Source: an uncultured Oscillospiraceae bacterium (GTDB lineage: Bacteria; Bacillota; Clostridia; Oscillospirales; Oscillospiraceae). Taken from it: a DNA stretch of 41,011 nt. Location of the stretch: contig CALXDC010000024.1 in the NCBI GenBank assembly GCA_944386975.1, positions 1 through 41,011 of the forward strand, read 5' to 3'. The notes beneath the pieces are model-generated. The model was given only the letters and a program-made list of their open reading frames with translations, ran no database searches and was not told the origin of the DNA. Each line of letters opens with the position of its first letter. The first letter of the stretch is position 1. Shown here in pieces: positions 19,899 to 29,892 of the stretch. The position numbers and the translations under genes were made by a program.

Positions 19899-22418
19899 TC
19901 ATTTGGGGGGCAGCACGGCGGCCAGAGCCTCCTTGATCCGCCCCACATCCACCGGCTTTGCAATATGCCCATTCATCCCTGCCGCCCGGGCCGCGGCGAT
20001 GTCGTCCTCAAAGGCGTTGGCCGTCATAGCCAGAATGGGGACGGTACCGGCGTCCGGCCGGTCCAACCGCCGGATCTCCCGGGTGGCGCCGTAGCCATCC
20101 AGCTCCGGCATCTGAATGTCCATGAGGATCGCCTCAAACTCTCCCGGAGCACTGGCTGCAAAGGTCTCCACCGCCTCCCGGCCGTTCTCCACGGCGGTAA
20201 CCTGGGCCCCCTCCATCCCCAGCAGCTCCAGAGCGATCTCCTGGTTGAGAAGGTTGTCCTCCGCCAGCAGGAGGCGGCGGCCCGTGAGGTCCGCCTCCGC
20301 CTTCGCCCCCTCCTCCCGGACGGGAGCCGTCTCCTCCGGCAGGGCGCAGGGGATGGTCACGGTAAAGCGGCTGCCCTCTCCCTGGCGGCTCTCCACCTGG
20401 ATCTGGCCCCCCAGCATCTGCACGATGTTCTGGGCGATGGCCATGCCCAGGCCCACGCCGCTGGTGGTGCCGGTCATGGAGGTGTCCTCCCGCTCGAAGG
20501 GCTGGAAGATCCGCTCCAGAAACTCCGGGGCCATGCCGATGCCTGTGTCGGACACAGTGAAGCGGAAAACAGCCTGACCGGGGAGGCCCTCCTCCAGTTC
20601 CTCCGCCTCAAGGGTGATGGCCCCCCCGGCGGGAGTGTACTTCACCGCATTGGACAGGAGGTTGTTGAGAATCTGGTCCAAGCGGCTGCCGTCGGTGATC
20701 ACCTGCCGGTGCCGCAGGGACAGGGGCAGGAGGGTGAACTGCTGGTGCTGAGCCTTGGCCTGGAGGCGGAAGAGGTCGGCGGTCTCCTCCAGCCGGCGGA
20801 CCAGGTCCACCGGGGCCATGTGGAGCTCCATCTTCCCCTGCTCGATCTTGGCGGTATCCAATACCTCATTGATGAGGTGCAGCAGCTGCTGGGAGGCCGC
20901 CGTCACCTTATCCAGACAGTCCGCCGCCTTCTCCGGCTGATCCAGGCTGGTCTGCGCCAGCTTGGCAAAGCCGACGACGGCGTTCATGGGGGTACGCATA
21001 TCGTGGCTCATCCGGGAGAGGAAGTCGCTCTTGGCCTGGTTGGCCATGCGGGCGCTGTCCAGAGACTCCCGCAGCATCCGATTTTTGGCCAGCTCTTCCG
21101 TTTTGCTGTCGTGGATGAGACGGAAGGCCAGGATCACCTGCCGCTCCTCCCCCGGCACGGCGAAGGCCTCGGCGCTGACCCAGCGGGCTCCCTGAGGGAA
21201 GGCCCGCTCATACTCCAGGAAGCGACGGACGGATTCCCCGCTCCCCAGCCTGCGCAGCTGCTCCAGAGAGAACTGCTCCAGGAAACCGGACCAATCCTCT
21301 TCCCGGACCATGGCGGACCGCACCTGCTCCAAAAAGCGTTCGTACCCACAGTCTCCTCTGCCCTGACTGCCGTCTCTCTCCTCCGCTTTGGTGATCTCGC
21401 AGCTCTCCCGATCCACGTCCACCAGAACCACACAGAAATAAGTCTGCCCCAGAGCCTCGAAGCAGTTCACTGCTTGACGGTTGCGGCGGTCGGCCAGATA
21501 AGCCCGGATAAAGAGGTAGAGGATAAACAGCAGAAAGATCCCCTGAAGTGCCATCTGCAGGAGGAAGATATCCGTGGCATCCTGTGTAATGACGGAGCGG
21601 GGAATGGTGACGATGCAGGTCCAGCCGTCAACACCAGTGATGTAATAGTGCTGATAGCTGTCCGCCTCCCCGTCCCAGCGGAGCATTCCCCGATCCCCCT
21701 GAAACTGCGCCATGAGCGCCAGATAGTCTTGAGCGGTAAATCCGTCCAGCTCGCAGCTGACGTGCTCCTGGCCAATCTGCTGGTGGAGCAGCACATTTCC
21801 TGTCTGATCCACGATGGTGGCGGTGCCAGGATAAATGTCGCTGCCTCTCTCCCACTCCACTTCGATGTCGCCCACCCGGATGTCCAGGGCCAGCACGCTC
21901 TCTCCATCCTCCAGAAGCTTGGAGAGGCTCACCATGCGAGTGCCGGTGCGGGCGTCCTCATAGACCAGGGAGCGGGCGCAGACGCCGCCGGCCTCCACCG
22001 CCTGGAGGTACCAGGGCCGCTCCAGGATGTTGTACTCCGGGCCGGGCCGCCAGCCGCTGCTATAGACCCCCTCCCCTCGGATCACCCCGTAAATACCGCT
22101 CTCGTCGTACTGCATGGTTTCCTCATACTGCAGAGAGAAGGCGGTAATCCACTGCTGGACGTCCTCCGCTGTGGCTCCCTGCTCCATCATGGCATCCACC
22201 ATGTAGGTGGCGTCCTCCAAAATCTGCTGATATTGCCCCATGAAGGCATCCACCTGGAGATTGAGATAGTCGGCGGTCATGGCTCCCAGCTCATTGGCAG
22301 AGCGGTAGGCATTCCGCCCGGAGATATACACGCCTGAAAACGCCAGCACGCCCATCAGAACGAACAGCAGCAAATTCTGCAGCAAAAAACGGCGGCTGGA
22401 TCTCTCGATTCCCCGCAC
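19899..22418 (-). CDS. hybrid sensor histidine kinase with C-terminal receiver
   Basis: 839 residues. N-terminal TM (FLLQNLLLFVLMGVLAFSGV), a large extracytoplasmic region of about 280 residues compatible with a dCache sensor (YNILERPWYLQAVEAGG), a second TM (FLLQMALQGIFLLFILYLFI), a PAS-like stretch (about 340-440), HisKA with MSHDMRTPMNAVVGF (His472), HATPase with NLLSNAVKYT, DTGIGM and TSGVGLGMAI, and a receiver with AEDNLLNQ, acceptor Asp767 in LMDIQMPELDG and the conserved AKPVD. The architecture matches BarA-like hybrid kinases of gut Clostridia. No HPt or output regulator is adjacent, so the output is unknown. Own promoter upstream. Confidence 0.93.
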   Translation of the reverse strand: MRGIERSSRRFLLQNLLLFVLMGVLAFSGVYISGRNAYRSANELGAMTADYLNLQVDAFMGQYQQILEDATYMVDAMMEQGATAEDVQQWITAFSLQYEETMQYDESGIYGVIRGEGVYSSGWRPGPEYNILERPWYLQAVEAGGVCARSLVYEDARTGTRMVSLSKLLEDGESVLALDIRVGDIEVEWERGSDIYPGTATIVDQTGNVLLHQQIGQEHVSCELDGFTAQDYLALMAQFQGDRGMLRWDGEADSYQHYYITGVDGWTCIVTIPRSVITQDATDIFLLQMALQGIFLLFILYLFIRAYLADRRNRQAVNCFEALGQTYFCVVLVDVDRESCEITKAEERDGSQGRGDCGYERFLEQVRSAMVREEDWSGFLEQFSLEQLRRLGSGESVRRFLEYERAFPQGARWVSAEAFAVPGEERQVILAFRLIHDSKTEELAKNRMLRESLDSARMANQAKSDFLSRMSHDMRTPMNAVVGFAKLAQTSLDQPEKAADCLDKVTAASQQLLHLINEVLDTAKIEQGKMELHMAPVDLVRRLEETADLFRLQAKAQHQQFTLLPLSLRHRQVITDGSRLDQILNNLLSNAVKYTPAGGAITLEAEELEEGLPGQAVFRFTVSDTGIGMAPEFLERIFQPFEREDTSMTGTTSGVGLGMAIAQNIVQMLGGQIQVESRQGEGSRFTVTIPCALPEETAPVREEGAKAEADLTGRRLLLAEDNLLNQEIALELLGMEGAQVTAVENGREAVETFAASAPGEFEAILMDIQMPELDGYGATREIRRLDRPDAGTVPILAMTANAFEDDIAAARAAGMNGHIAKPVDVGRIKEALAAVLPPK

Positions 22419-23654: not shown

Positions 23655-24758
23655 TCACTGCCCAAGATATACTACGTCGGTATCGGACTGGAAATTGTCC
23701 ACACTGTAGCAGACAAAGATTGCATCCATGCCGTTCTGTTCAGCATAGGCCGCCACCGGGGTGCGGTAATACCGCAGATCCAGCAGGTGAATCTCCGAAA
23801 AATACTGGCTGAGGAAGGGAGCCAGGGAGTCGCTATAGCTGTCCCGGACTACCAACAGCTTCTGATCCGTCAGGGCATTGGGGTTTTCAATGATATAGAG
23901 GGGGTTGTTGCCACCCATGAAGTAGGTATACTTGTCCTTCCCCTCAAGATTTTCCTCCACATAGAGGCCGTGGGTGGAGAGGCTCATACCGTCGTTGACA
24001 GTGACGGTGACCCCCTCCCCATCCACATACCGGACCATGGTATCCGGGGTGAGCCAGTGGACGCCGGAGGAGGAGTAGAGGGTACCGTTGAAATCCTCCG
24101 ACACCGTGACAGCCTCCCCCAAGGGCTCCGGAGTCACTCCCATGGCCTCCATGAGAGCAGTGTAACCGTAATAGGCCCCGAGACTGGTCCAGTGGTGGTC
24201 GGTACGGTAAAAGATGTCCTCCCCGGCGTGGTCCGCCAGGACTCCAGCCATGTCCACATAGATGGCCCCGCTGTCCTTGGCTTCCTCGATATAGCTGAGC
24301 TGGTCCATGGTGGGAGCCCCCTCCGGCAGCTCGCCTCGAAGGATCTCGGCGGCGGTGGGAATGAGGCCCAGGTACACCGGCAGATCCGTCTTCTCCGTCA
24401 GCTGCTGGAGATAGGTGAGGTTTTTGTCCGCCCGGTCGCTCTTGGTGACCTTGCTGATAAGCCGGTCGCCGCAGAGGTAGACGTTGTTGAACTCCCGCTT
24501 GCCGAGAAGCCACTCATACCGGGTCTTGAGGCCCATCCAGCCGTCCCGGAAGGGGAACTGGTCCTCCAGATAGGTCTCAATACCGGCAGTGTAGGTTCCG
24601 TCCTTCAGCTTGTCCCAGGAGAAGGTGGGAAATTGAGCCAGATACCGGTTCTCCACCTCGGAGAAGGTCCGGTCCGGCAGGACCACATGGAGCACGCCGA
24701 AGCCCGCAATGAAGAGGCAGAAGAGGAGCGCCGTCAGGCGCTGTGTCGCTTGTTTCAT
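23655..24758 (-). CDS. DHHW-family surface-polymer acylation protein
   Basis: 367 residues from ATG 24758, chosen because AAGGAGG lies 8 bases upstream (a GTG three codons earlier overlaps the ribosome-binding site). N-terminal signal anchor (LTALLFCLFIAGFGVLHVVL), then SEVENRYLAQFPTFSWDKLK and YLEDQFPFRDGWMGLKTRYE, features of DHHW proteins; the family-defining DHHW is in YRTDHHWTSLGAYYGYT. A late VVRDSYSDSLAPF resembles the SGNH/AlgX-like catalytic-Ser region. Known analogues (AlgJ/AlgX) work outside the membrane with an MBOAT protein to O-acetylate polysaccharide. Overlaps no gene; follows the MBOAT stop by 13 bases. Confidence 0.88.
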   Translation of the reverse strand: MKQATQRLTALLFCLFIAGFGVLHVVLPDRTFSEVENRYLAQFPTFSWDKLKDGTYTAGIETYLEDQFPFRDGWMGLKTRYEWLLGKREFNNVYLCGDRLISKVTKSDRADKNLTYLQQLTEKTDLPVYLGLIPTAAEILRGELPEGAPTMDQLSYIEEAKDSGAIYVDMAGVLADHAGEDIFYRTDHHWTSLGAYYGYTALMEAMGVTPEPLGEAVTVSEDFNGTLYSSSGVHWLTPDTMVRYVDGEGVTVTVNDGMSLSTHGLYVEENLEGKDKYTYFMGGNNPLYIIENPNALTDQKLLVVRDSYSDSLAPFLSQYFSEIHLLDLRYYRTPVAAYAEQNGMDAIFVCYSVDNFQSDTDVVYLGQ

Positions 24759-24771
24759 ACCGCGCACCTCC

Positions 24772-26163
24772 TTAGAAGCGGAAATAGAGGAAGGGATTGT
24801 AGCTGGCGTCCACCAGGGAGGCGGTGCACAGCACCAGGGAGGCCAGCACCAAAACCGGCGTCAGCACATCCTGAACCTTCTCGGGAAGGCGGAAGAAGAG
24901 CTTGCGCAAAGCCGGCGTGGCAGACACCGCCAGAATCACCAGCATGGGGAGATAGCTGAACAGCTGATAGGCGGTGAAGGCGTCCCAGAGGGCGCCGCCG
25001 CCGAAGCACACCAGAAGGTACCGGCCCAGGTGGCCCATGCTTTCGATGGCAAAGAGGCCCCAGCCCACCAGCACCACCAGGAGGGTGTACACATGGCGCA
25101 CCACGGTGGGAGCCCGCTCCAGCCATTTGCCCAGGAACAACCGCTCCGCCAGCATCCACAGGGCGTAGTAGAGCCCCCAGAGGAGGAAGTTCCACCCGGC
25201 GCCGTGCCAGATGCCGGTGAGGACCCAGACGATGAGGAGATTCCGCACCCACTTCAAGCGGCTGCACCGGTTTCCCCCCAGAGGGAAGTAGACGTACTCC
25301 CTAAACCAATTGGTGAGGGAGATGTGCCAGCGCTTCCAGAACTCCACCACGGACCGGGAGATGTAGGGGTAATTGAAGTTCTCGATGAACTCAAAGCCGA
25401 ACATCCGCCCCAGGCCGATGGCCATGTCGGAGTAGCCGGAGAAGTCGAAGTAGATCTGGAAGGCGTAGGCAATAAGGCCCAGCCAGGCTCCGGCTACCGT
25501 CAGCTGGGCGGTGTCGGTGGAGAGGAAGGTGTCCCACAGCTTGCCGATGGCGTTGGCCAGCAGCACCTTTTTGGCGAGGCCCACGGAGAACCGCTGGATA
25601 CCGGCCACAAACTTGGCCAGGTCCTCCTTCCGGCTCTGGAGCTGGTCGGCCACGGACTTGTATTGGATGATGGGACCGGCAATGAGCTGGGGAAAGAGGG
25701 TGACGAAGGTGCCGAAGGTGATGATGTTGCGCTGCACCGGGGCGTCCTTTCGGTAGACGTCGATGGTGTAGGACATGGTCTGGAAGGTATAGAAGGAGAT
25801 GCCGATGGGCATGGATACCCCGGTGATGGGGAGGCTCCAGCCGGTGACGGCGTTGATGCTGCCTGCCAGAAAATCGTAATATTTGAAGAAGACCAGGATC
25901 AGCAGGTTTAAAAAAACGGAGGAGGCCACAGCCATCCGGGCCTTCCGGTCGTTCTGCCGCCACTTCTCCACCAACATACCGTGGGTGTAGTCCACGGCGA
26001 TGGAGAGGAACATGATGAGGATGTACACCGGCTCGCCCCACCCATAGAAGAAGAGGCTCACCAGGAGCAAAACAAGGTTGCGCAGCTTCAGCGGGGCGAT
26101 CTTGTAGACCGCCAGTGTTACCACCAGATAGAAAAACAGAAACGGCAGACCGGAAAAGACCAT
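24772..26163 (-). CDS. MBOAT-family O-acyltransferase (AlgI/DltB-like)
   Basis: 463 residues, about ten to twelve hydrophobic segments. MBOAT hallmarks: FEFIENFNYPYISRSVVEFW, then KRWHISLTNWFREYVYFPLG (His280) and VLTGIWHGAGWNFLLWGLYY with the catalytic His320. Known role: transfers an acyl group (usually acetyl) across or at the membrane to a secreted polymer, with an extracytoplasmic DHHW/AlgJ-type partner, here encoded next door. AAAGGAG lies 8 bases before ATG 26163. The polymer is not identifiable; no polysaccharide synthesis cluster is in the window. Confidence 0.93.
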   Translation of the reverse strand: MVFSGLPFLFFYLVVTLAVYKIAPLKLRNLVLLLVSLFFYGWGEPVYILIMFLSIAVDYTHGMLVEKWRQNDRKARMAVASSVFLNLLILVFFKYYDFLAGSINAVTGWSLPITGVSMPIGISFYTFQTMSYTIDVYRKDAPVQRNIITFGTFVTLFPQLIAGPIIQYKSVADQLQSRKEDLAKFVAGIQRFSVGLAKKVLLANAIGKLWDTFLSTDTAQLTVAGAWLGLIAYAFQIYFDFSGYSDMAIGLGRMFGFEFIENFNYPYISRSVVEFWKRWHISLTNWFREYVYFPLGGNRCSRLKWVRNLLIVWVLTGIWHGAGWNFLLWGLYYALWMLAERLFLGKWLERAPTVVRHVYTLLVVLVGWGLFAIESMGHLGRYLLVCFGGGALWDAFTAYQLFSYLPMLVILAVSATPALRKLFFRLPEKVQDVLTPVLVLASLVLCTASLVDASYNPFLYFRF

Positions 26164-26239: not shown

Positions 26240-26713
26240 TTACTGGAACAGAGCGTTGAAGGCATCCACCGCGGCAGTCTGGTCCTCCCCGGCAGCGATG
26301 AGGGCCACCACGTTGCCGTTGACCAGAACCTCGGCGTTCTGCCAGGCCTCCACGGTAGCGGGATACATGGCGCCGCCCTCCACCTGGCTGTCAATGCGGG
26401 ACTGGAAGATGCCCTTGACGGCCTCCACATCGGCCTCGTCGGCCACTTCCACCAGGGCCATCTCAAAGGCCACAGCGGAGATGGCAGCGGTCTGAAGGAC
26501 CTTCTGGTTGAAGGTGTAGCTGGAGAGACCGGGGTAGACGTTCTCCACCAGATCGTCGGTGACCTCCATCATCATGGGGACGTTCTCCCCCAGGGAGGCC
26601 ATGAACTCGTCATAGTAAGCCTGCAGGTCGGGAGCCTCCTTAGCGCTGCTGCCGCAGGCCACAAGGCCCAGAGCCATAACAAATGCAAGAGCAATGGAAA
26701 CTACTTTTTTCAT
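26240..26713 (-). CDS. DUF4358 lipoprotein (short form)
   Basis: 157 residues. Lipoprotein signal MKKVVSIALAFVMALGLVAC with LVAC lipobox, then the DUF4358 domain: ADVEAVKGIFQSRIDSQVEG, YPATVEAWQNAEVLVNGNVV and TAAVDAFNALFQ. The same segments occur in the C-terminal domain of the 22602 lipoprotein (VKAIFQARIDAMVDGGAWYP, DDIVDAFNALF). First gene of the MBOAT/DHHW operon. Function of DUF4358 is unknown; an extracellular accessory to surface acylation is inferred from linkage. AGGAGAATCTTAACG precedes the ATG. Confidence 0.87.
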   Translation of the reverse strand: MKKVVSIALAFVMALGLVACGSSAKEAPDLQAYYDEFMASLGENVPMMMEVTDDLVENVYPGLSSYTFNQKVLQTAAISAVAFEMALVEVADEADVEAVKGIFQSRIDSQVEGGAMYPATVEAWQNAEVLVNGNVVALIAAGEDQTAAVDAFNALFQ

Positions 26714-26790: not shown

Positions 26791-26863
26791 CCCCTATTTT
26801 TCAAAAAATATTTTCGATATTTTTCGTAGTTTCTGCCGTGAGGGAAATTATTTCTTTTTTGCC

Positions 26864-27398
26864 GGTACCCGACAGAGGGCTATCTGGTGGTCTGCCTCCG
26901 GCGGCCTACTTTTCTCATCAAAGAAAAGTAGGCAAAAGTTGACTTAGAACCAAGGTTCTAAGGACTCCTTTCGGCCTATTATGGGAAGTCTATCCCGTTT
27001 TTTCGGTGATCTTGTGCGGCTGACGGGTGCAAGGGGGTCGGAGTTCCCCTCTCCCCGCGCTTCAGCGCGCTTCCCTGGTGGTCGTCGGGGCCTCTACACC
27101 GATATTGTCAGACTTGCCAAAGCCGCACAAACTCATTCGCGGAAAAGCGGTAGCCGAAAGAATCAACGTCTACCCAACAGATGAGCGCGCTGAAGCGCGG
27201 CGCTTAAAGCAGAAGATGACCCAAATCGGCGTCACCCGCACAAAGCCTCCAACCGAACGCCTCCCTGACCATCCGGTCTTGGTAATAACCAAAGGAGTTC
27301 TTAGAACCTTGGTTCTAAGCGAGTTTTTGGTGACTTTTTGCTCGTCCAAAAAGTCACCCGCCGGAGGCAGAACACCATTCGAAATACCGTCGGGTACC
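26864..27398. repeat. 535-bp non-coding imperfect palindrome (MITE-like element)
   Basis: The ends are GGTACCCGAC (26864) and GTCGGGTACC (27389-27398). Moving inward, arms on the two sides mirror each other in order: CTGCCTCCGGCGG (26892) and its complement (27358-27370); local hairpins CCTACTTTTC/GAAAAGTAGG (26905-26932) opposite GTGACTTTTT/AAAAAGTCAC (27330-27357); CTTAGAACC-N2-GGTTCTAAG at 26943-26962 and 27300-27319; CTCCTTT and AAAGGAG; TTGTGCGGCTGACG (27012) and CGTCACCCGCACAA (27230-27243); CCGCGCTTCAGCGCGCT (27055) and its complement (27184-27200). A central 111-base part remains unpaired. No credible gene, no transposase. It fills the 740-base gap between the lipoprotein promoter and pcrA. 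Confidence 0.85.
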
Positions 27399-27453
27399 GA
27401 CAGAAGAAAAAACCTTCGTCAGCGGAGGGCCCGCCCGGCCAGAGGGCAAAATC

Positions 27454-29892
27454 TCACAGCTTGCTCATGTGGACCCCGGCGGAGCGGAGCATCAGCTTCT
27501 TGGTCCCCACCTGGTCGAAAGCCACCTCGACGAGGGCGTCGTTGCCCATCTTCCGCACCGACAGCACCATCCCCTTGCCGAAGGTCCGGTGGGTTACCAT
27601 GTCCCCCTGGCTCAGCTGCAAAAGATCCGCTGTGGCGCTGCCGCCGGCGGTGTGGGAAGAATACCCTCGGTCCGGCGCGGGCCGGGGTCGACGGCGGTAA
27701 GCGGACGCCGCTATGCGGACGGCGGTGTGCTCCTCCCCCTCAAAGCCGGTGTGCTCCTCCCGGATGCGGGGCTCCGGCTTGCCCTGCCAGATGCTGTTCT
27801 CCCCGGGCACCTCCTCCAAAAACCGGGAGGCCTTGTTGCTGGTGGTGCGGCCGAAGAGCATCCGCTGCCGGGCGTTGGTCATGATGAGCCGCTCCTTGGC
27901 CCGGGTCATGGCCACGTAGCACAGCCGCCGCTCCTCCTCCATCTCCTCACTCTCGCCGATGCAGCGCATGCCGGGGAAGATCCCCTCCTCCATGCCCACT
28001 ACATAGACATTGGGGAACTCCAACCCCTTGGCGCTGTGCATGGTCATCAGCGTCACCGCATTGTCCCCGTCCTCGGTACCGTCCAGGTCGGTGTACAGGG
28101 CCACCGTGTCGAGGAAGCCTGCCAGAGAGGGGTCCTCCTGGCCGCTGTCCAAAAACTGGAGGATACTGGATCGCAGCTCCTGGATGTTCTCCAGACGGCC
28201 CCGGCTCTCCATGTCCCCCTTCTGCTCCAGAGCCAGGCGGTAGCCGCTGCGCTCCACCACCAGGTCGTAGAAGTCCGGCAGGGGCAGGTCATCTGCCTGG
28301 TCCTTGAGCTCCTCGATCATCTTCACGAAGTCCATCAGCTTCCCGGCGGACCGCTTCAAATCGGCGTAGGCCTCCGCGTCTTTCAAAATCTCATAGGCGG
28401 GGACTCCCTGCTGATAGGCCAGCTGCTGGACCCGGTCCACCGTGGTGGGACCGATGCCCCGGGCGGGGGCGTTGATGATCCGACGGAGCCGGAGGTCGTC
28501 GGCGCTGTTGTTGATGACACAGAGGTAGGACAGCATGTCCTTCACCTCCATGCGGTCGAAAAACTTGAGGCCCCCTACCACCTGGTAGGGGATTCCGTTG
28601 CGCTTGAGGGCCATTTCCAGGGCGTTGGACTGGGCGTTCATCCGGTAGAGAACGGCGCTGTCCTTCCACTCCAGTCCACGGCTCCGGGAGGCCAGAATCT
28701 GGCCCGCCACATAGGCCGCCTCGTCCCCCTCGCTATACACCGTCTTGATCTGCACCGGGTCCCCCTGGCCGTTCTCCGTCCAGAGGGTCTTGCCCTTGCG
28801 GCTCTGGTTGTTGCGGATCACCGCGTTGGCCGCGTCCAGGATGTTCTGGGTGGAGCGGTAGTTCTGCTCCAGGCGGATGGTCCGGGCCCCGGCATACTCC
28901 TGCTCGAAGCTCAAGATGTTCTCGATATTGGCCCCCCGGAAGCGGTAGATGCTCTGGTCGTCGTCGCCCACCACGCAGATGTTGCCCTTCTCCCCAGTAA
29001 GGAGCTTCGCCAGCAGGTACTGGAGGTGGTTGGTATCCTGGTACTCGTCGATGAGCACATAGCGGAACTTCCGCTGGTAGTAGGCCCGGACCTCCTTATT
29101 TTTCTGGAGGAGATGGACGGTATGGAGGATGATGTCGTCAAAGTCCAGGGCGTTGGCGTCCCGGAGGCGGCGCTCGTAGCCCTCGTAGATCTTGGCGAAA
29201 CGGAGGAGCCGCCAGTCGTTGGTGCTCTCCATCCGCTCCCGAAACTCCTCCAGGCTCTCGTTTTGGTCTTTGGAGGCGCTGATGTGGGACAGCACCGCCC
29301 GGAGCGGGAACTCTTTCTCCTCCAGCTTCAACTCCTTCAGCACATCCTTGACGACCCGCTTGCTGTCCTCGGTGTCGTAGATGGTAAAGCTGTTGGTGAA
29401 GCCCTCCCCCAGCTTCTCCATGTCCCGGCGGAGAATCCGCACGCAGGCGGAATGGAAGGTGGCGGCCCAGATGTCGTTGGCGGCTGCGCCGCACATCCGC
29501 TCCAACCGCTCCTTCAACTCCCCGGCGGCCTTGTTGGTGAAGGTGATGGCGATCACCGACCAGGGCACCGCAGGGTCCACGGCGCACAGCCGCCGGGCCT
29601 CCCCCCAATCCTCCGGGGCGGGCTGGGCCGGAAAGTTTTCCAAAAAGCGGAGGTCCTCCTCCGTGGCCCACTGGGGCACCTCGCAGGTGTCGCTGCCCCG
29701 GCCGAAGGTGAGCAGGTTGTCCACCCGATTGATGAGGACGGTGGTCTTCCCGCTGCCCGCCCCCGCCAGCAGCAGAAGAGGCCCCTCAGTGGTCAGCACC
29801 GCTTCCCGCTGCTGAGGGTTCAGTCGCTGGTACCGCCGGGCGATCACCGCCCGCCGGGCGTCGGCATAGCGCCGGATAAAATCCTGTGTCAT
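27454..29892 (-). CDS. pcrA: ATP-dependent DNA helicase PcrA/UvrD
   Basis: 812 residues, slightly longer than typical PcrA (about 720-750). UvrD-type superfamily 1 motifs in order: Q motif LNPQQREAV; Walker A AGAGSGKTT (43-51); motif Ia ITFTNKAAGELKERL; motif II LIDEYQDTN; motif III GDDDQSIYRFRGA; motif IV RLEQNYRST; motif V MTMHSAKGLEFPNVYVVG; motif VI YVAMTRAKERL. The C-terminal end (GDMVTHRTFGKGMVL through SAGVHMSKL) is the PcrA Tudor-like domain that contacts RNA polymerase. Known role: 3'-5' helicase in nucleotide-excision repair, transcription-coupled repair and replication-conflict resolution. No clear intrinsic terminator follows; the palindromic element begins 56 bases past the stop. 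Confidence 0.95.
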   Translation of the reverse strand: MTQDFIRRYADARRAVIARRYQRLNPQQREAVLTTEGPLLLLAGAGSGKTTVLINRVDNLLTFGRGSDTCEVPQWATEEDLRFLENFPAQPAPEDWGEARRLCAVDPAVPWSVIAITFTNKAAGELKERLERMCGAAANDIWAATFHSACVRILRRDMEKLGEGFTNSFTIYDTEDSKRVVKDVLKELKLEEKEFPLRAVLSHISASKDQNESLEEFRERMESTNDWRLLRFAKIYEGYERRLRDANALDFDDIILHTVHLLQKNKEVRAYYQRKFRYVLIDEYQDTNHLQYLLAKLLTGEKGNICVVGDDDQSIYRFRGANIENILSFEQEYAGARTIRLEQNYRSTQNILDAANAVIRNNQSRKGKTLWTENGQGDPVQIKTVYSEGDEAAYVAGQILASRSRGLEWKDSAVLYRMNAQSNALEMALKRNGIPYQVVGGLKFFDRMEVKDMLSYLCVINNSADDLRLRRIINAPARGIGPTTVDRVQQLAYQQGVPAYEILKDAEAYADLKRSAGKLMDFVKMIEELKDQADDLPLPDFYDLVVERSGYRLALEQKGDMESRGRLENIQELRSSILQFLDSGQEDPSLAGFLDTVALYTDLDGTEDGDNAVTLMTMHSAKGLEFPNVYVVGMEEGIFPGMRCIGESEEMEEERRLCYVAMTRAKERLIMTNARQRMLFGRTTSNKASRFLEEVPGENSIWQGKPEPRIREEHTGFEGEEHTAVRIAASAYRRRPRPAPDRGYSSHTAGGSATADLLQLSQGDMVTHRTFGKGMVLSVRKMGNDALVEVAFDQVGTKKLMLRSAGVHMSKL

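Follow-up and report, generated by a model that had tools for sequence, protein, structure and literature searches.

REPINs are pairs of inverted REP sequences that show compensatory changes, and RAYT transposases are proposed to mobilise the whole doublet (PMC3116915); the length of a REP is given as 20–40 bp in another paper (PMC3733652). REPs are characterised by a tag of GTAG or CGTC type. In the Bacillus cereus group, bcr1 has been described as dispersed repeats with a conserved predicted fold (PMC2267715), and its mobile character is taken from a title cited within that paper. The element reported here was found in a window of 41,011 nucleotides (the whole stretch of DNA that was analysed) from an uncultured Oscillospiraceae bacterium. 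It has in common with bacterial MITEs that it is gene-less and dispersed, has inverted ends and many copies, and has a longer gene-carrying form with similar arms; the differences are that its ends keep structure more than sequence, and that its longer forms hold a helix-turn-helix (HTH) gene and a DUF6809 gene, with no known transposase found. Dispersed repeats with a conserved predicted fold are common to this family and bcr1, a comparison made by description only, and we know of no inverted-pair architecture or pseudoknot in bcr1. Integron attC sites and the ends of IS200/IS605 elements are recombination sites in the form of folded single strands; recognition by folded structure over sequence, which we propose here, would be common to them, whereas the present units are inverted and do not lie on one strand.

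Two inverted palindromic units around a spacer, extragenic position, many copies per genome and compensatory changes are shared with REPINs as described in PMC3116915. The family differs in its unit, which is about 66 nt or longer and has a covarying loop-linker pseudoknot, and in the element itself, which is about 0.4–0.9 kb long with terminator-like ends; furthermore, its own genome (G000) is without a detected Y1 transposase, and some relatives carry the HTH and DUF6809 genes. Given a longer, pseudoknotted unit and an own genome in which no Y1 domain was detected, we liken the element to a REPIN or MITE in the way it works and do not class it as either. Several genomes, which belong to two or more families of gut Clostridia, carry this repeat family in tens of copies. 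It appears not to have been described before: among the titles and abstract openings in the literature covered, to which subscription journals contribute little, none describes such a family.

Position, copies and distribution of the element

The element (Table 1) is flanked by a gene at 27454–29892 (− strand), presumably pcrA, a name taken over from the first reading of the sequence, and by a small gene of the same direction at 26240–26713, whose sequence looks lipoprotein-like. An inverted-repeat search found complementary arms at 26885–26971 and 27291–27377 (87 nt, 77% complementary), outer arms at 26851–26873 and 27389–27411 (23 nt, 83% complementary) and local hairpins at 26904–26933 and 27329–27358, and the folding z values of the two strands were −13.1 and −14.1, with 0 of 100 shuffles as low on each. 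With arms found and a fold far below the shuffles on both strands, the inverted repeat that the original prediction had placed at 26864–27398 is real. The strict mirrored order of blocks proposed along with it fails in the centre, since the inner block pairs 27007–27021/27121–27135 and 27055–27081/27174–27200 cross and do not nest. The region had also been read as gene-free, and codon-usage gene calls indeed recognised no gene in the element; a long + strand open reading frame over part of it runs antisense into pcrA. Elsewhere in the window, at 23655–26163, two adjoining − strand genes lie beside two small lipoprotein-like genes, and judged by their open reading frames they resemble an MBOAT O-acyltransferase and an AlgX-like partner.

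Table 1. Parts of the element and their positions in the window.
Feature	Position	Strand	Remarks
Whole element	26833..27422	.	CTGCCG (family form CTGACG) to CGTCAG; ends compared over own-genome copies; orthologous empty sites in G003, G008, G009
Left-end weak inward terminator-like hairpin and T run	26826..26860	+	−6.1 kcal/mol
Left unit, inward reading	26904..26968	+	Covariance model R1, 79.0 bits
P1 hairpin, left unit	26904..26933	+	Arms 26904–26915 and 26922–26933; loop 26916–26921
Pseudoknot, left unit	26918..26942	+	26918–26921 (TCAA) with 26939–26942 (TTGA); alignment A1 columns 15–18/36–39
P2 hairpin, left unit	26944..26961	+	TTAGAACC-AA-GGTTCTAA
Middle part	26969..27293	.	Varies among copies; no gene recognised; spot of the HTH-DUF6809 pair in longer relatives
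Right unit, inward reading, other P1 and pseudoknot alleles	27294..27358	-	R1, 79.1 bits
P2 hairpin, right unit	27301..27318	-	A1 pair counts
Pseudoknot, right unit	27320..27344	-	CGAG (27344–27341) with CTCG (27323–27320)
P1 hairpin, right unit	27329..27358	-	GGTGACTTTTTG / CAAAAAGTCACC
Right-end inward terminator-like hairpin (27413–27445) and T run (27407–27412)	27407..27445	-	−10.0 kcal/mol, then TTTTTT; 8 bases behind the pcrA stop codon

When 26800–27460 was used as a query, 158 matches were obtained in the own genome, in agreement with the suggestion of a MITE-like dispersed repeat. Around the matches, 31 stretches were taken, and 41 copies with their flanks were analysed; the number of copies is a lower bound, because the covariance model R1 lists units elsewhere too. 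A unit facing inward is present at both ends in 40 of these copies, and the remaining copy is a half. Of 105 pairs of neighbouring units spaced by less than 1.4 kb, 102 face inward (31/31 in the own genome, 13/13 in G066, 12/15 in G060, and 46/46 at loci of named MAGs), a count that used 76 of the 124 hits of the own genome (those of at least 71 bits), 34 of 37 in G066, all 71 in G060, and 120 of 127 at the named loci, the last being units from 57 scanned stretches of the at least 109 given by the pattern scan below. G066 belongs to another family; its unit spacing is 378–391, the middle part is conserved among 13 copies, and small hairpins seem to be arrayed along the flanks.

Several other repeats accompany the copies. 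In the flanks of own-genome copies (e.g., L055 and L057) and of the G066 copies L167–L179, short outer palindromes of GCCGGGACCGGC and GGCCGGGCGGGCC types occur on one or both sides of the element with runs of T or A between them, giving the impression of nested or accreted hairpin modules. Several longer copies (L047, L049, L051, L156, and L157) have a second dispersed repeat (CCTTCCCC...GGGGAAGG...GGATGAGGG) inserted in their interior. In G006 and G008, a GTTAAGAAAACATGCCGGCGGCATGTTTTTAGCGTAGGCC-like repeat is found within a unit or next to one (in L157 close to the right unit, and in L066 and L080), and two own-genome loci, L051 and L059, have a similar stretch following P1.

R1 matched all 11 genomes of the genus, with at least 11 to 124 hits each. 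Within the order, 24 of 295 genomes, from 18 of 149 genera and with the own genome among them, had a match at E 1e-5, and in a sample of the phylum 4 of 348 genomes did so at E 1e-6, two of the four being the own genome and G060. The similar cores expected in related gut Clostridia are thus found across genomes of the genus and order. A pattern scan of named genomes with one allele gave at least 109 stretches, and among the matches listed nearly all are from Oscillospiraceae, Oscillibacter, and other Clostridia MAGs. In contig 43 of Pseudomonas entomophila WZ006 (L274, 6694–6727), there is a similar hairpin with an AAAAA linker and no loop-linker match by eye, which may be a separate family. 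Phage and plasmid sequences gave no match to the element and viral contigs none to one unit allele, and a phage or plasmid origin was therefore rejected.

Comparison of the single site at the end of pcrA between species, where insertion and loss are told apart by outgroup logic, showed that among the 11 genus genomes it is filled in G000, G004, and G006, whose elements differ in their interiors. It is empty in G003, G008, and G009, in which pcrA directly follows the matching upstream stretch; G001, G002, and G010 have other sequence there, and G005 and G007 were not assignable. No target duplication was recognised by eye at the flanks of the copies and at the pcrA sites. A terminator-like hairpin (≤ −4 kcal/mol) with a T run was found at 62 of 80 ends read inward vs 7 of 80 read outward, the outward control having read a slightly longer stretch. 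The generic terminator scan gave 5 sites vs 1.2 expected, none of which is an end terminator, the right-end site being absent from them, and the promoter scan gave one site, near chance. Since the right-end terminator-like site lies only 8 bases behind the stop codon, the pcrA transcript probably ends in the element, and the role of an end-of-transcript element for pcrA, which had been offered as one possibility, is plausible.

The repeat unit and its fold

We consider the repeat family and the structure of its unit to be well supported. The unit is about 66 nt long and consists of P0 (a tiny hairpin), P1, an A-rich linker, and P2, in this order. P0, mostly GCC-TCC-GGC, is present in 98 of 102 units vs a mean of 47 in shuffles, and 78 share one allele. 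P1 occurs among the units as CCTAC/GTAGG, GTGAC/GTCAC, CCGAC/GTCGG, CCCAC/GTGGG, and other alleles, and the P1 loop varies together with the 3′ part of the linker (GTCAA/TTGAC, GCTGA/TCAGC, GCGGA/TCCGC, GCCAA/TTGGC, and CGAG/CTCG).

Alignment A1 was composed of 26 units hand-picked for variety from 76 distinct ones. In this alignment, 96.8% of 650 cells are paired (77.0% in shuffles), 17 of 25 pairs change on both sides (11.7 in shuffles), and 133 cells are doubly changed (44.1 in shuffles), while the fold slid by 1–3 columns leaves 33–55% paired. The earlier observation that paired positions change while hairpins persist is supported by the covariation of these 17 pairs. All P2 cells (100%) are paired and 6 of 8 P2 pairs covary, a pairing rate biased upward because the rows were chosen for having P2, those without P2 of the searched form (6 of 102) being excluded. 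Each of the four pseudoknot pairs (columns 15–18/36–39) shows two or three pair types, and 103 of their 104 cells are paired; a fifth pair (columns 14/40) holds in 15 of 26 rows and fails in 11.

The longest complement between loop and linker has a mean length of 4.04 vs 2.38 with shuffled partners (maximum 2.61 in 1000; 108 units); this test used 127 distinct sequences of 150 aligned matches (152 found), and 108 of the first 120 rows were usable. Ten own-genome units that are absent from A1 (L031, L035, L036, L039, L040, L042, L044, L051, L053, and L059) have an insert of about 70 nt in the linker (ATCTCCGCGCTAAG...). These are an independent check of the loop-linker pairing: in seven, the partner that follows the insert is complementary to the loop, in one (L042) it is mismatched, and in two (L051 and L059) no partner was found. 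A class of broken linkers (ATCTCCGC after P1; ten own-genome units) was rejected, since the linker carries an insert instead. By our estimate, a linker of 5 nt is tight for spanning the 12-pair P1, and the loop pairing might be an alternative fold and not a simultaneous pseudoknot.

Within the 40 elements that have both units, arm identity is 0.683 vs 0.696 for random partners (permutation p 0.93). An excess within elements is absent for P1 with the pseudoknot (p 0.92), P2 (p 0.92), the inner side (p 0.996), and the outermost segment (p 0.52); the other two of the six segments, which lie near the ends, have a weak excess (p 0.027 and 0.026). The long complementarity of the element thus arises because it has two inverted copies of one repeat unit. 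The proposal that the two halves are held complementary as an inverted duplication does not agree with these identities, and in place of a maintained single rod of more than 500 bases, which had also been put forward, a local fold is kept in each arm, including a pseudoknot unseen in the first reading.

Long forms carrying genes

At five named loci, the units are 918–1331 nt apart and two divergent small genes lie between them. Four of these loci were scanned, and the genes are an XRE-type HTH (HTH_3 or HTH_26) and DUF6809 (PF20648), the latter above the cut-off in three and at 25.5 vs 27 bits in one; at the fifth (L191), close relatives of the HTH and DUF6809 proteins were found by tblastn. 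In a comparison with 13 short copies, which covered rows for L217 and L251 and some reverse-strand rows, L251 shares up to its first 180 and last ~220 bases with the short copies, and L217 up to 91 and ~210 bases.

In the genus, 20 DUF6809 loci are present in 10 of 11 genomes. A clear unit lies near DUF6809 in 10 of these loci, and one further locus has only a match of 23.8 bits. The HTH gene of the divergent pair reads into the unit in 8 of the 20 and ends 23–242 nt before it; the own-genome case is C37, with DUF6809 at 22059–22295. Outside the genus, no unit was found near the 13 DUF6809 loci of five among 12 element-rich genomes, and DUF6809 was not found in the other 7 of the 12, including all five of genus g33. 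Since DUF6809 was not found in these seven element-rich genomes, the pair cannot be the general driver, and DUF6809 was rejected in this role on its absence from the searches of the element-holding G066 and its genus mates. Judged from these gene arrangements, the HTH-DUF6809 pair is a recurrent passenger or partner.

A tblastn search (E 1) with the HTH and DUF6809 proteins found no relic genes in the short elements of the own genome and two weak hits in G066 loci. The predicted fold of DUF6809 is a low-confidence model (pLDDT 73, pTM 0.39) with no PDB match at E 0.001, and its sequence hits are weak (best E 0.015, mostly myosin light chains). DUF6809, the function of which is not known, is not mentioned in the literature searched, where subscription journals are mostly outside the coverage, and gains a genomic context here.

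Mode of recognition and competing explanations

The reading we prefer, with a probability of about 0.45, is that the feature is a gene-less (non-autonomous) member of a mobile element family found in the order, similar to REPINs and MITEs and recognised as folded single-stranded DNA. The element ends are inverted copies of one structured unit (P0, P1, the loop-linker pseudoknot, and P2), and these units, folded as single-stranded DNA, would be the recognition signal for a recombinase or transposase supplied in trans, by analogy with REPINs. Inward terminators would make insertions behind genes tolerable, and the short copies may be derivatives of the long gene-carrying form or hosts that the gene pair entered. 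No recombinase or transposase was tied to the family; if the family is mobile, these genomes would have a structure-recognising mobilisation system in which no known transposase takes part.

Evidence on the folded molecule comes from the types of base pairs. Among the Watson-Crick and G-U cells, G-U accounts for 8 of 1963 in the best 105 distinct rows and for 15 of 2267 when all 127 rows are counted, these cells being not independent of each other. A-C cells, which correspond to G-U on the other strand, number 15 outside column 1 in the 105 rows, and 14 of them are at one column. As a small control, six tRNAs from the same loci have 8 G-U in 140 pairs. So low a share of G-U speaks for selection of strict Watson-Crick pairs, of the kind seen when single-stranded DNA folds, and the terminator-like ends, being directed inward, speak against a read-through RNA. 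We place folded DNA ahead of RNA, without certainty.

That the unit is instead a structured RNA, either a small RNA or a cis-regulatory one, which folds into an H-type pseudoknot and whose inverted pairing gives a sense unit from either strand, is unlikely but deserves a hearing. The covariation with loop-linker pairing and the A-rich linker, which is the usual look of RNA pseudoknots, are in its favour, as are the 8 of 20 genus DUF6809 loci where the HTH gene reads into the sense unit at the distances given above. However, G-U pairs are nearly absent on either strand, the inward terminator-like ends would halt read-through ahead of the unit, and Rfam 15 has no family at gathering score over the window. 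A known RNA family was rejected on this last result, and wider Rfam searches gave only sub-gathering matches, a single one in one of these searches; the strongest (AsrC, E 3.4e-5, L101 97–152) is more than 1 kb from the unit. With so few G-U pairs despite strong covariation in the pseudoknot, the choice between DNA and RNA can be tested directly, and an RNA would be a new pseudoknot class.

A new mobile class could also be considered, with ends recognised as single-stranded DNA pseudoknots of nearly pure Watson-Crick pairing and moved by an enzyme not yet recognised as a transposase; in one branch, the XRE regulator and DUF6809 would be genes belonging to the full-length element itself. We regard this reading as quite doubtful.

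It is improbable that the element is a host-useful 3′-end element, i.e., a bidirectional insulator that gives both neighbours terminators and is kept for that. By simple codon-usage gene calls, 14 of the 41 copies lie between convergent genes, 24 between co-directional and 2 between divergent genes, with 1 unresolved, and these positions, together with the inward terminator-like ends and the right end directly behind pcrA, are consistent with such a function. However, the same distribution is expected from target preference and tolerance, three sister species retain pcrA with no element behind it, and an insulator leaves the pseudoknot, the conserved inward pair, and the gene-carrying forms unexplained.

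Membership of the REP/REPIN-RAYT system in the strict sense is very improbable. The inverted palindromic pair, extragenic and in many copies with compensatory changes, is as for REPINs (PMC3116915), but the unit is longer than the REP described in PMC3733652 and has a different fold, and the Y1 transposase domain (PF01797) was not detected in the own genome, which is about 90% complete, so that a missed gene is possible. Three of the 11 genomes of the genus have the domain, as do 3 of the 12 element-rich ones.

That one long palindrome is maintained as such, as a rod RNA or a long hairpin, is scarcely credible, since the arms of one element are not more alike than those of different elements and P1 with the pseudoknot, P2, and the inner side show no excess, while the very low folding energy on both strands and the weak excess in two end-near segments of the six tested speak for it.

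Apart from the unit described above, L067 (~1933–1963) and L300 (~2100–2160) may represent a third class of units, in which P1 is longer (TTTTCTTTT...AAAAGAAAA); the one in L300 lies shortly behind an HTH gene.
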